This document shows positions 5,292 to 32,208 of a DNA stretch of 64,000 bases, in pieces (the stretch's first letter is position 1; every line of letters begins with the position of its first letter). A program made the position numbers and the translations under genes. The DNA comes from Pseudanabaenaceae cyanobacterium SKYG29 (GTDB lineage Bacteria; Cyanobacteriota; Cyanobacteriia; Pseudanabaenales; Pseudanabaenaceae): assembly GCA_025055675.1 (NCBI GenBank), contig JANWWT010000001.1, positions 744,001 to 808,000 of the forward strand. Reading direction: 5' to 3'. The notes beneath the pieces are model-generated. The model did no database searches. It was not told where the DNA came from and saw only the letters and a program-made list of their open reading frames with translations.

Positions 5292-7101
5292 GCAAGGGAT
5301 AACCTCATTTGTAAATTGGCTGCGGGAAAATTTAATCCCCATTAGTTCGGGGATAACGGTGACCACGATCGTTATTGTGACCAAATTTATGGGACTGTGG
5401 CAGAGTTGGGAGTTAAACATTTTGGACTGGAGTTTTGCCCATAGCCCCCCCGAACCACCCGATCACAGAATTGTCATCATTGGTATCACGGAAGCGGATA
5501 TTAGAAATGTAGGTTACCCTGTCCCCGATCGGGTGTTAGCTGATTTAATTACCCAGCTACAAACCTATCGACCAAGGGCGATCGGGGTAGATATTTTTCG
5601 CGATCTACCTGTTCCCCCAGGCACAAAGGAATTACAGGCAATTTGGCGAAATATACCCCAAGTAATTGGCATTGAGAAATCAGTGTTACCTGCCCCTGAT
5701 AATCCTATAGTTAAACCGCCGCGGCAGTTACCGCAGGAGCAAGTGGGCTTTGCCGATGTGTTATTAGACGAGGATGGCAAAATTCGCCGCGCTCTGTTGT
5801 CAGCTCCTGGTATTGATAGTGCTTATCGCTTTGCTTTTGCTACCCGTCTAGCTAGTTTATATTTACAGCCAGAAGGTATCACTCTCAGCAATGGTATTAG
5901 GGATAGCCATGCTTTTCGCTTTGGTAATGTGGAGTTGCCCAGATTTACTGGTAGCAGCGGGGGCTATGTGCGTGCAGATAGCGGGGGCAATCAAATCCTA
6001 ATTAACTGGCGTAGACAGGCTAAGTTTACCATCGTTTCTCTACAAGAAGTACAGACTAAACAATTTGATCAGCAATACTTTCAGGACAAGGTCATAATTA
6101 TTGGCTATACCGCCCCCTTTAGTGCTAAGGACACTTTCTTTGTCCAGAATAAAGAAATTTATGGCGTAGAATACCATGCCCATGTTGTCAGTCAAATTCT
6201 TAGTTTTGTACTAGAGCAACGACCACCCCTGCGCCCCCTACCATCTTGGTTAGAGTACTGTTTGATTTTAGTTGGGGGTATAGGGGGAATGTTTTGGGCA
6301 CTTAGCTGTAATTCTCCCTGGTCAATGTATGGGGGATTGGGGAGCAGTATAGTTTTCCTATTTGTCTCTAATTACGGGTTGTTGGTCTACCACTGGTGGC
6401 TACCCATTGTTCCCACAATCATTAGCACAATCAGTAGCACAATTGTCACACGTAATATCAGTGATTTTCGAGCATTTTTGCGCCAACAAGCCCAACTATT
6501 AGAACAACGTCAGCGAACCCTCGATGATGCTTTTAATGCTATGCACAATGGACCCCTCCACACCCTCGGCGAACTGCTTAGCCTCTTAAAAATGGAGGAA
6601 GTGCCCCAGCCCACAATTATTACCAAATTGCAACAACTCGATCGGGAATTGCGCACTGTCTATGAATCCCTCCGTCCCGAAAATTTAGCGAAGGCAGCTT
6701 CTATTCCTCTCCATGAGCTGTTGTTTGAAGTTTATCACCGCACTATGCAGCGGGATTTTGCCTGTTTTCGCTCCCTCAAGGTGAGGGTGCCGGATATTCA
6801 CCCTATAGACGATCGGGGTTTGAGTGGAGAATTAAAGCGGGAAATTTGCGATTTTTTAGAGGAAGCCCTCTGCAACGTGGGCAAACACGCCGTAGGCGCT
6901 ACTCGTTTGACAGTAATTTGCAAAGAAATCGCGGGCAAACGCACAATTAGAGTAATTGACAACGGTATTGGCTTGCCCCAAGACAATCACCGAGTTAGTG
7001 GAGGTACCAAACACGCCCAGCAATTGGCAAAACGCCTACGGGGGAAATTTCAGCGCCGTCCCCATCAGCCCCAAGGCACAATCTGTGAACTGGAATGGTA
7101 G
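5284..7101 (+). CDS. CHASE2-domain sensor histidine kinase
   Basis: 605-residue membrane sensor. The N-terminus is one span (about 18-38), followed by an extracytoplasmic CHASE2 domain (about 40-305, with DHRIVIIGITEADI and RAIGVDIFRD), then about three spans (320-395). The cytoplasmic part has an H-box-like HNGPLHTLGELL near residue 424 and a NarL/DesK-style HATPase with intact N-box (EEALCNVGKHA) and G1 box (VIDNGIGL). It should therefore bind ATP. No response regulator gene is adjacent; the partner must be elsewhere. The 8-nt overlap with the LptF/G gene suggests coupled translation and perhaps envelope sensing. Confidence 0.87.
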   Translation: MLRQGITSFVNWLRENLIPISSGITVTTIVIVTKFMGLWQSWELNILDWSFAHSPPEPPDHRIVIIGITEADIRNVGYPVPDRVLADLITQLQTYRPRAIGVDIFRDLPVPPGTKELQAIWRNIPQVIGIEKSVLPAPDNPIVKPPRQLPQEQVGFADVLLDEDGKIRRALLSAPGIDSAYRFAFATRLASLYLQPEGITLSNGIRDSHAFRFGNVELPRFTGSSGGYVRADSGGNQILINWRRQAKFTIVSLQEVQTKQFDQQYFQDKVIIIGYTAPFSAKDTFFVQNKEIYGVEYHAHVVSQILSFVLEQRPPLRPLPSWLEYCLILVGGIGGMFWALSCNSPWSMYGGLGSSIVFLFVSNYGLLVYHWWLPIVPTIISTISSTIVTRNISDFRAFLRQQAQLLEQRQRTLDDAFNAMHNGPLHTLGELLSLLKMEEVPQPTIITKLQQLDRELRTVYESLRPENLAKAASIPLHELLFEVYHRTMQRDFACFRSLKVRVPDIHPIDDRGLSGELKREICDFLEEALCNVGKHAVGATRLTVICKEIAGKRTIRVIDNGIGLPQDNHRVSGGTKHAQQLAKRLRGKFQRRPHQPQGTICELEW

Positions 7102-14085: not shown

Positions 14086-15069
14086 CTAGGGAGTAGCAGA
14101 TAATGCCAGCATCCGTTGAATGGGCTGCAGTGCTGCCAAACGCAGGGATTCATCAAGAGTGATTTCCGGGGAGCGATCGCGCATGGTGTAGTACAGTTTT
14201 TCCAGGGTGTTAAGCCGCATGTAGGGGCATTCGTTACAGGCGCAGTTGTTATGGGCGGGAGCAGGGATAAAGGTCTTGCCCGGGGCAATTTTTGCCATTT
14301 GATGGATAACCCCAGGTTCCGTCACTACGATAAATTCAGGGGCAGCACTGCGGGCGACATACTTGATCAAGGCAGTGGTAGAACCAATAAAGTCGGCATG
14401 GCGTAAAACTGCTGCTTCGCATTCAGGGTGGGCAATCACCTCTGCCTGGGGATGTTTTACTTTTAATTCCACCAGCTTCTGTTCTGAAAAAATTTCATGG
14501 ACAATACAGGTGCCCTCCCACAACAATAAATCTCTTCCTGTCTGTGCCGCTACGTATCTGCCTAAATTGCGATCGGGGGCAAAAATTAGGGGTTGGTCGG
14601 GGGGAAAGGAGTTGACAATTTTGACCGCATTGGCGCTGGTGCAGATCACATCGCTCATAGCTTTGATAGCAGCGGAGCAATTAATGTAGGACACGACTTT
14701 GTGATCGGGGTGAGCAGCTTTGAACTTGCGGAATTCATCAGGAGGACAACTATCAGCAAGGGAACAGCCTGCATTCAGATCAGGGAGGAGGACTTGTTTA
14801 TCGGGATTGAGAATTTTTGCTGTCTCCGCCATAAAATGGACACCCACAAAGACAATCACATCCGCTGTAGTCTGGGCAGCCGCCTGGGCTAGACCGAGGG
14901 AGTCACCAATGTAGTCAGCAATGTCCTGGAGGTCGCTATTTTGGTAATAATGGGCTAAAATAACAGCGTTTAACTCCCGCTTCAGGTCGGTAATTGCCGC
15001 TACTAAATCGATCGGCTTTCTCTCTGTCCTTGATGCACGAGTTGCTACAAACAATTTCTTACCCCCCAA
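14086..15069 (-). CDS. nadA: Quinolinate synthase NadA
   Basis: Makes quinolinate from iminoaspartate and dihydroxyacetone phosphate in NAD synthesis. The three cysteines of the [4Fe-4S] cluster are at residues 102 (AGCSLAD), 188 (EGTCIVHE) and 281 (CNECPYM). Other family blocks: [16 protein letters not shown] and [13 protein letters not shown]. Length 327 is normal. The first methionine adds a short charged leader before the conserved region; a later start cannot be excluded. nadB and nadC are not adjacent. It lies between mutL and the SDR-like gene on the same strand. Confidence 0.96.
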
Positions 15070-30962: not shown

Positions 30963-31397
30963 ATGGCTCTAGTACGTTATCAACCCTTCCGTGAATTTGA
31001 TGCTATTCAAAAAGAAATGAATCGCTTGTTTGACAGTCTATTTGCTACGGCAGAAAGTGTTTCTCCCTATGCTTTCATGCCCGCTGCGGAGCTGGAAGAA
31101 ACTAATGAAGCCATCAACCTGCGCTTAGAGTTGCCTGGTATTGACCCCAAAGAATTGGACATCCAAGTAACTGCTAACTCCGTATCTATTACGGGGGAAC
31201 GGCGCTCCGAAACCAAGACCACAGAAGACGGTGTCACGCGCTCTGAATTCCGCTATGGCAAATTCCAACGGGTGATTCCTCTGCCTGCCCGTGTTCAAAA
31301 TAATCAAACCAAGGCAGAATACAAAGATGGTATTCTTCATCTCACCCTGCCCAAGGCAGAAGAGGAAAAGAACAAAGTGTTCAAGGTCACCCTCTAA
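30963..31397 (+). CDS. hspA: Small heat-shock protein HspA (Hsp20/alpha-crystallin)
   Basis: 144-residue class A small chaperone, similar to cyanobacterial HspA/Hsp17. N-terminus MALVRYQPFREFDAIQKEMNR; alpha-crystallin domain with LRLELPGIDPKELDIQV, GERRSET and YGKFQRVIPLP; terminating strand in the GILHLTLPKAEEE block. The extreme C-terminus carries the VTL tail rather than a clear I-x-I motif. Behind the stop lies a set of 15-bp repeats and then a terminator. Strong ribosome site and leader hairpin point to post-transcriptional control. Confidence 0.94.
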   Translation: MALVRYQPFREFDAIQKEMNRLFDSLFATAESVSPYAFMPAAELEETNEAINLRLELPGIDPKELDIQVTANSVSITGERRSETKTTEDGVTRSEFRYGKFQRVIPLPARVQNNQTKAEYKDGILHLTLPKAEEEKNKVFKVTL

Positions 31398-31408: not shown

Positions 31409-31464
31409 GGCTCAGCTTCGACAGGCTCAGCTTCGACAGGCTTAGCTTCGACAGGCTCAGCAGG
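31409..31464 (+). repeat. 15-bp tandem repeat, three and a part copies
   Basis: Units GGCTCAGCTTCGACA (x2), GGCTTAGCTTCGACA, then a partial GGCTCAGCAGG. Each unit can fold on its junction (AGCTT-CGAC-AGGCT). A close relative (AGCTCTGCTTCGACA) is tandemly present inside hisH 0.45 kb downstream, with the same AGCAGG end. Located between the hspA stop codon and its terminator. Confidence 0.9.
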
Positions 31465-31476
31465 TGGGATTGCTTT

Positions 31477-31498
31477 GCCCCCGATCGGGGGCTTTTTT
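31477..31498 (+). terminator. hspA: Rho-independent terminator of hspA
   Basis: Perfect 8-bp inverted repeat GCCCCCGA/TCGGGGGC followed by seven T. The centre contains the CGATCG palindrome. It ends 18 bp before the hisH start. Confidence 0.92.
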
Positions 31499-31515
31499 TA
31501 TGGCAATATATCTCC

Positions 31516-32208
31516 ATGACAATTTTAGTGATTAATTCAAGGGTCGCTAATCTCCACTCGGTAGTCAAAGCTTTGCAGCTGGGTGGGGCGGCAGTACAAA
31601 TTACCGATCGTTACCAAGATTTTGCTGGGGCAAGGGCAATCGTATTACCTGGGGTGGGAGCGTTCGATGCCGGGATGACAGCCTTACAACAAAAAGACTT
31701 GATTCATCCTCTCCAAGACTGGGCAGCTAAGGGGAAGCCATTGCTAGGAATTTGTCTGGGGTTGCAGATGCTATTTGAACGATCGGCAGAGGGAGAAAAA
31801 GCAGGTCTGGGCATTCTCAAGGGGGATGTGCAACGGTTACCTGCTTTGCCTGCTGTACCTTTGCCCCACATGGGCTGGAATCGCTTGGAAATTTGTGGTT
31901 CGGCAAGCTCTGCTTCGACAAGCTCTGCTTCGACAAGCTCAGCAGGCGATGGGTGGGTTTTGTGGCAGCATCTGCCTGCGCATCCTTGGGTCTATTTTGT
32001 CCATTCCTACTATGTTGAACCTGTAGACAAAATGATCGTTACTGCTACAACGGATTACGGGGGGTTTCACCCTGCTGTGGCAGTGGGGCAAGGCAATATT
32101 ATGGGGTTACAGTTTCATCCCGAAAAATCGGGTCCGATCGGGCTACAAATCCTGAAAAATTTCGTCCAGTATGCTGGCGTATTAGCGGAGACAGGTAACT
32201 ATGGCTAA
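31516..32208 (+). CDS. hisH: Imidazole glycerol phosphate synthase glutaminase subunit HisH, with repeat insertion
   Basis: Class I glutamine amidotransferase that feeds ammonia to HisF. 230 residues from the ATG of MTILVINS. Catalytic triad: Cys80 in GICLGLQ, His201 and Glu203 in QFHPEK. Between the conserved PHMGWNRLEI (ending about 126) and WVLWQHL is an extra low-complexity loop of about 16 residues made of Ser, Ala and Thr (SASSASTSSASTSSAG), encoded by the 15-bp repeat and in frame, so the protein should still fold. It overlaps the DUF2808 gene by 8 nt. hspA terminator precedes it, so it has its own promoter or reads through. Confidence 0.93.
   Translation: MTILVINSRVANLHSVVKALQLGGAAVQITDRYQDFAGARAIVLPGVGAFDAGMTALQQKDLIHPLQDWAAKGKPLLGICLGLQMLFERSAEGEKAGLGILKGDVQRLPALPAVPLPHMGWNRLEICGSASSASTSSASTSSAGDGWVLWQHLPAHPWVYFVHSYYVEPVDKMIVTATTDYGGFHPAVAVGQGNIMGLQFHPEKSGPIGLQILKNFVQYAGVLAETGNYG
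31906..31946 (+). repeat. hisH: 15-bp repeat array inside hisH
   Basis: Two perfect units AGCTCTGCTTCGACA followed by AGCTCAGCAGG. Unit length is a multiple of three, so insertion keeps the frame and adds Ser/Ala/Thr residues. Same family as the array behind hspA. Confidence 0.9.

Follow-up and report, generated by a model that had tools for sequence, protein, structure and literature searches.

Tandem arrays behind hspA and inside hisH of a cyanobacterium probably grew from a REP-like palindromic repeat associated with GIY-YIG nuclease genes

The tandem arrays behind hspA and inside hisH of this cyanobacterium (genome G000, 2.56 Mb, 18 contigs) most probably belong to a non-autonomous palindromic repeat of REP-like type, whose copies grew locally after insertion. 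They lie in the window, which is the whole 64-kb stretch of DNA that was analysed (G000:C1:744001-808000). In the explanation that accounts best for the data, insertion of a palindrome would be followed by slippage, with microhomology setting the period, and then by selection for codon-compatible periods. The repeat is dispersed in this genome and in many cyanobacteria, and it has entered conserved genes, including essential ones such as hisH. The chances seem about even that the family is spread by, or has co-evolved with, a small solitary GIY-YIG nuclease.

The hspA reading frame (30963-31397, + strand, 144 aa) was taken from a list of open reading frames, and its name, denoting a small heat-shock protein (Hsp20-like), is the original prediction's reading of the sequence. 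The array in its 3' region (31409-31464, + strand) has a 15-bp period and consists of three full units and a terminal unit. The units are of the GGCTCAGCTTCGACA type and start at 31409, and the terminal AGCAGG occupies 31459-31464. A hairpin resembling an intrinsic terminator, GCCCCCGATCGGGGGC-TTTTTTT, follows at 31477-31499 (+ strand). The next gene, hisH (31516-32208, + strand), encodes the 230-aa glutaminase subunit of imidazole glycerol phosphate synthase, and its product scores 188.9 bits against TIGR01855, for which the cut-off is 105.4. The in-frame array in hisH (31899-31946, + strand) contains two TTCGRCAAGCTCTGC units and a terminal unit, in the order TTCGGCAAGCTCTGC / TTCGACAAGCTCTGC / TTCGACAAGCTCAGCAGG, and the terminal AGCAGG is located at 31941-31946. 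This array holds a single complete palindrome, CTGC-TTCGACAAGCTCA-GCAG (31925-31945, + strand). The unit spacing is exactly 15 bp in both arrays. Tandem Repeats Finder reported only four arrays in the window, and the hspA and hisH arrays rank at the top (scores of 101 and 77 versus 53 and 41). The tandem units with a common AGCAGG end that had been described at both places are therefore real. The claim that about 16 residues were added to HisH between conserved blocks with the frame intact also holds, since the array contributes the 16-17 residues GSASSASTSSASTSSAG (residues ~127-143) to a protein that clearly matches its family. Other short tandem arrays in the window, with a 12-bp unit, are found at 6414-6443 and 14901-14924 and are unrelated to the palindromic repeat.

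The mobile unit is a palindrome of 21-31 nt, in which an invariant asymmetric core is enclosed by variable complementary stems. The core is TTCGRC-N2-3-GCTCA, which appears as TTCGRCARGCTCA in this genome and as TTCGRC-TTC/TCC-GCTCA in relatives. The asymmetric core TTCGACARGCTCA does not change from site to site, while the arms vary yet stay complementary; the arm pairs in this genome are CTGGT/ACCAG, CTGCT/AGCAG, CTCCCT/AGGGAG, GGGCT/AGCCC, CAACT/AGTTG, and TTGGT/ACCAA. Stem covariation was examined at 69 distinct sites, picked by the core alone, and compared with shuffles. The flanking positions 1, 2, and 3 are paired in 67, 56, and 59 of the 69 sites, whereas the shuffles gave means of 41, 23, and 24 and maxima of 52, 37, and 36. 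All four pairs (GC, CG, AT, and TA) were observed, with three to four pair types per position. Because variable paired stems surround a constant core, the 15-mer proposed by the original prediction is not the mobile unit: the palindrome is longer, and 15 bp is only a tandem period. The description of the sequence as a palindromic interspersed repeat is upheld by this test and by the genome-wide counts given below. When folded as DNA, the palindromes form a stem of 5-7 bp and an 11-nt loop with modest stability, and the hairpin z-score was below -2 in only one of five folded examples. Inverted pairs of a GGGC-type and a CTCCC-type palindrome, separated by a spacer of ~16 nt, occur three times in this genome, and inverted pairs also flank GIY-YIG genes. 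At the secF site, the core palindrome bears different self-complementary stems in two species, CAACT/AGTTG here (G000:C6:234.3k, L147) and GGT/ACC in G002 (L225), hinting at stem conversion after insertion.

With one mismatch allowed, TTCGRCRAGCTCNS has 92 matches in the 2.56-Mb genome, compared with 7 for the reversed control pattern. The repeat matches fall at ~25 sites on both strands. The exact 15-mer CTTCGACARGCTCAG is present in 17 of 58 relatives, one of which has 74 copies, the highest number in this set; it also occurs in 67 of the 386 cyanobacterial genomes searched. Its reversed control has no match in either set. The nearest relatives, G001 and G002, belong to the same genus but are separate species (~77% DNA identity), and the hisH of G002 is the same as that on the Pseudanabaenaceae MAG contig CALGKB010000001.1. 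A search of Rfam returned a sub-threshold SNORD2 match alone, on the opposite strand, which we put down to chance. The translated repeat pieces PELVEG and FDRLRANG are common in bacterial protein databases, which fits a very widespread family.

Two small GIY-YIG genes in this genome have palindromes on both sides. One is intact (G000:C1:891416-891655, - strand, 105 aa), and the other is broken by two stops (G000:C2:137720-137926). The intact protein matches PF01541 with 60.4 bits (2.2e-16), and Y5, Y15, R25, and E62 are invariant in the alignment (A1), so the conserved Tyr/Tyr/Arg/Glu catalytic residues are present. The subfamily linked to the palindromes is marked by a GW[STN]RxKK motif (GWSRxKK). 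We collected 15 loci of this type, of which 14 belong to the close subfamily (at least 65% identity) and one, with 50% identity, is carried by a plasmid of Sphingomonas parapaucimobilis. A locus was counted as flanked when a core palindrome with a stem of at least 4 bp lay within 500 bp of the gene. Core palindromes flank the GWSRxKK gene at 15 of 15 loci (12 on both sides), not all of them independent because the proteins at L252-L254 are identical, and at 0 of 44 other GIY-YIG loci. Near the GWSRxKK genes there are 85 palindromes in 47 kb, versus one in 124 kb of control loci, which are nearly all cyanobacterial. The loop variants beside the gene include TTCGACTTCGCTCA, TTCGACTCCGCTCA, and TTCGGCTTCGCTCA.

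The presence of the gene also agrees with the distribution of the repeat. Among the 58 relatives, the 15-mer occurs three or more times in all five genomes with a GIY-YIG homologue of ~70% identity or more, compared with 3 of the 53 others (p = 1e-5). Among the 386 genomes, the 15-mer is present in 8 of 10 with a close GIY-YIG gene and in 59 of 376 without one (p = 2e-5). GIY-YIG proteins from 50 genomes of other phyla all lack the GW motif and none is flanked, with the exception of L288 (Phycisphaerales, KRWTHAKK), which adjoins a long-loop palindrome, GCCCTTCGA-N13-CTCAGGGC / GCCCTTCGATGCGCTTCGCTTACTCAGGGC, and was assigned to neither group. Viral contigs contain no close relative of the protein; the phage copies are at most 46% identical.

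Several of these loci show further peculiarities. On Methylobacterium plasmids, two loci (L277 and L279) carry a GIY-YIG gene of the same type (GWSRAKK; one is degenerate) together with a different palindrome, CCTCATCCTGAGG..CCTCGAAGGAGG, and they were left out of the 15. This case suggests that several palindrome families are paired with the GWSRxKK nuclease clade. At L156 (G040:C1:1932972-1936211), several copies of a composite unit of ~172 bp, in which a CCCT..AGGG palindrome is combined with a CACT..AGTG palindrome, lie beside the GIY-YIG gene. At L154, L155, and L156, the GIY-YIG reading frame continues into the flanking palindrome (SLSEVEG), and the repeat forms the C-terminal tail.

The proposal is that the solitary GWSRxKK nuclease spreads the palindromes, or co-evolves with them, as RAYT transposases act on REPs. 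In its full form, which we put forward tentatively as somewhat short of an even chance, the GWSRxKK protein would recognise TTCGRC..GCTCA hairpins and spread the palindromes over Cyanobacteria and Alphaproteobacteria, hairpin-templated repair would regenerate the variable stems, and the copies would make new in-frame protein loops. If true, a dedicated GIY-YIG nuclease and not a Y1 transposase would drive a two-component mobile repeat system that is new in kind. The strict pairing of one GIY-YIG subfamily with one palindrome family provides a concrete, testable mobiliser candidate. We found no paper that links GIY-YIG genes with REP-like palindromes in the open-access full-text literature, and none that contains the repeat sequence or its translations; coverage is incomplete, and the repeat may have been described earlier.

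Some genomes are rich in the repeat and lack a GWSRxKK gene, including G170 (49 copies, single contig), G425 (26 copies), G131, and G001 (22 copies; its assembly is fragmented, 90%). Mobilisation by the nuclease is therefore something we only infer. A divergent GIY-YIG gene was not found in most of the repeat-rich genomes. The association is one-sided; therefore, the gene may be a mobiliser that disappeared once the repeats had spread, or it may be a passenger of the homing type with the palindromes as its targets. The passenger explanation, in which the nuclease uses palindromes already widespread through another spreader as its insertion sites, is somewhat unlikely. It accords with the many repeat-rich genomes without the gene, and it has a precedent in the documented insertion sequences that target REPs (PMC1525189). 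At 20 repeat loci of palindrome-rich genomes without the gene, neither Y1_Tnp nor GIY-YIG adjoins the repeat and no other partner was found, which also favours this explanation. However, the association is total when viewed from the gene, across loop variants in Cyanobacteria and on an alphaproteobacterial plasmid, and palindromes stand on both sides at most of the GIY-YIG loci, like the ends of a two-component element.

The repeat resembles REP/REPIN elements with their RAYT genes in several respects. Both comprise small dispersed palindromes of about 20-40 nt in many copies, which form inverted pairs separated by a short spacer, and in both the repeats flank a small nuclease gene of low copy number. 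In contrast to REP/REPIN, the asymmetry and conservation lie here in the loop (TTCGRC..GCTCA) and not in a GTAG foot, the stem sequence is variable, the gene found with the repeat encodes a GIY-YIG protein and not a Y1 HUH transposase, and the repeat inserts into genes and expands into tandem arrays. It is improbable that these are classical REP/REPIN elements whose mobilising RAYT has since been lost from this genome, although the small palindromes, the inverted pairs with a spacer of ~16 nt, the high copy number in some genomes, and the Y1_Tnp proteins of 42 of the 58 relatives would agree with such a history. No match to Y1_Tnp (PF01797) was obtained in G000, G001, or G002, and none in the stretches around repeats in seven repeat-carrying genomes. 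A RAYT was accordingly rejected as the partner, given its absence from the genome and the genus. A GTAG or CGTC foot tag is no commoner than chance: GTAG occurs three times and CGTC once in the flanks of 76 sites, where ~6.5 are expected for any 4-mer. Since neither the tag nor a RAYT partner was found, we do not file the repeat under REP/REPIN, though it is REP/REPIN-like in its working.

REP-like palindromes for which no mobiliser is known still pose a problem. One case is the CGTC-tagged REPs, which are palindromic repeats found across phyla without a dedicated transposase (Di Nocera et al. 2013, PMC3733652); the present family is similar in both respects and differs in its core sequence and in having no CGTC tag. 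The associated protein shares the single-domain GIY-YIG fold with other solitary nucleases (PF01541; YhbQ/UPF0213-like). Unlike the other solitary GIY-YIG genes examined, the GW[STN]RxKK subfamily is tied to palindromes. Small dispersed repeats (SDR) of Nostoc and Anabaena, which are mobile repeats of 21-27 nt, are likewise short mobile repeats of cyanobacteria, and to our knowledge no gene is associated with them.

Insertion was examined by comparing the array sites with those of relatives, which are empty sites in other species; the comparison resolved neither a transposition event nor a target-site duplication. The orthologues of HisH that were examined lack the GSASSASTSSASTSSAG insert, including those of G001 (60%) and G002 (73%). 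A HisH loop shared from unrelated codons was not seen in 36 sequences, and the unit is present elsewhere in the genome; thus, neither observation that had been named as contradicting a mobile repeat was made. In the AlphaFold model of HisH, the mean pLDDT is 88.8, and values below 50 occur only at residues 130-143. The model supports the view that the insert is disordered and loops out at the surface, with conserved blocks on either side. The length of this loop varies in other HisH proteins too, and it is in this flexible part that the array is tolerated.

The gene order hspA-hisH is kept in G002, and its intergenic region is alignable; the array is absent there, and the terminator-like hairpin is retained. 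This bears on the idea that the host retains the repeats because they serve it, for example by stabilising mRNA 3' ends or by terminating transcription behind hspA. The hspA array does sit between the stop codon and the terminator-like hairpin. However, G002 keeps that hairpin without the array, ten arrays are located inside genes, and the arrays have no gene class or position in common, so a host function is very unlikely.

The reading as a mobile palindrome that enters genes is extended by eight further genes with in-frame copies of the family: lpxC, chlM, yfiH/pgeF, secF, pyrC, pabB/trpE-like, an FAD oxidoreductase, and an unnamed 368-aa protein, the names being our own reading of the sequences and not results of family searches. 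At the same sites, G001 and G002 have no array, and show nothing or a short relic. A single relic core is found in the DNA of G002 at the secF, pabB, and FAD oxidoreductase sites. Therefore, some insertions predate the species split, and the tandem growth alone is specific to this genome. The translations of the arrays differ between genes (STSSG, RQAH, DKLWF, and TELVEV), which argues that no peptide is under selection. Rickettsial palindromic elements (RPE) are palindromes found in frame in conserved genes whose function is apparently kept. The present repeat shares with them the in-frame insertion into conserved genes; by description, RPE differ in their unrelated sequence, longer unit, and lack of tandem growth with a codon-compatible period. 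In this genome, new protein loops can be seen in the making, probably by insertion, slippage, and period selection, and nine or more conserved genes are affected simultaneously.

Most arrays consist of one complete palindrome and partial units. In the arrays of 14 and 15 bp, a GCTC on the 5' side of the stem marks one end of the duplicated segment and the loop-terminating GCTC marks the other, as in GCTC-CCTTCGACAG-GCTC (14 bp) and GCTC-TGGTTCGACAA-GCTC (15 bp), and the complete palindrome is at the 3' end. In the arrays of 18-20 bp, the complete palindrome lies on the 5' side instead, and each unit comprises CGACAAGCTC, the right arm, and 4-5 nt of flank. This anatomy indicates that 15 bp is probably a secondary tandem period, equal to the distance between two GCTC words. 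After insertion of a palindrome, replication slippage or template switching from GCTC to GCTC, 14 or 15 bp apart, would cause local growth and would give the 15-bp period of the hisH and hspA arrays. Both array types would fit slippage or template switching at the hairpin after insertion. Ordinary local microsatellite or VNTR expansion without a mobile element, with Ser/Ala/Thr low-complexity tracts arising independently, is scarcely credible, because although local tandem duplication does enlarge the arrays and such tracts occur in several genes, one 13-nt core is common to sites that differ in strand, reading frame (four or more), stem, genus, and position inside or outside genes, which rules out independent expansion.

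In this genome, 10 of 24 arrays are inside genes. Their periods are 15, 21, 24, and 63 bp, and all ten are divisible by three, compared with 6 of 14 for the non-coding arrays; the difference is significant for these 24 arrays, which were classified by hand (Fisher p = 0.006). Arrays of 14, 19, and 20 bp occur outside genes only. Statistically, only periods divisible by three survive in genes. The original prediction had attributed the tolerance of coding insertions to 15 being a multiple of three; this is supported as a selection after the fact, and it is not peculiar to 15 bp, as the longer coding periods demonstrate. In the yfiH/pgeF-like laccase-domain gene (G000:C1:470107-471078, L202), a single palindrome has expanded into a tract of ~8 in-frame units of the QAHQPQD type (21-24 bp), and the whole tract is missing in G002 and G001.
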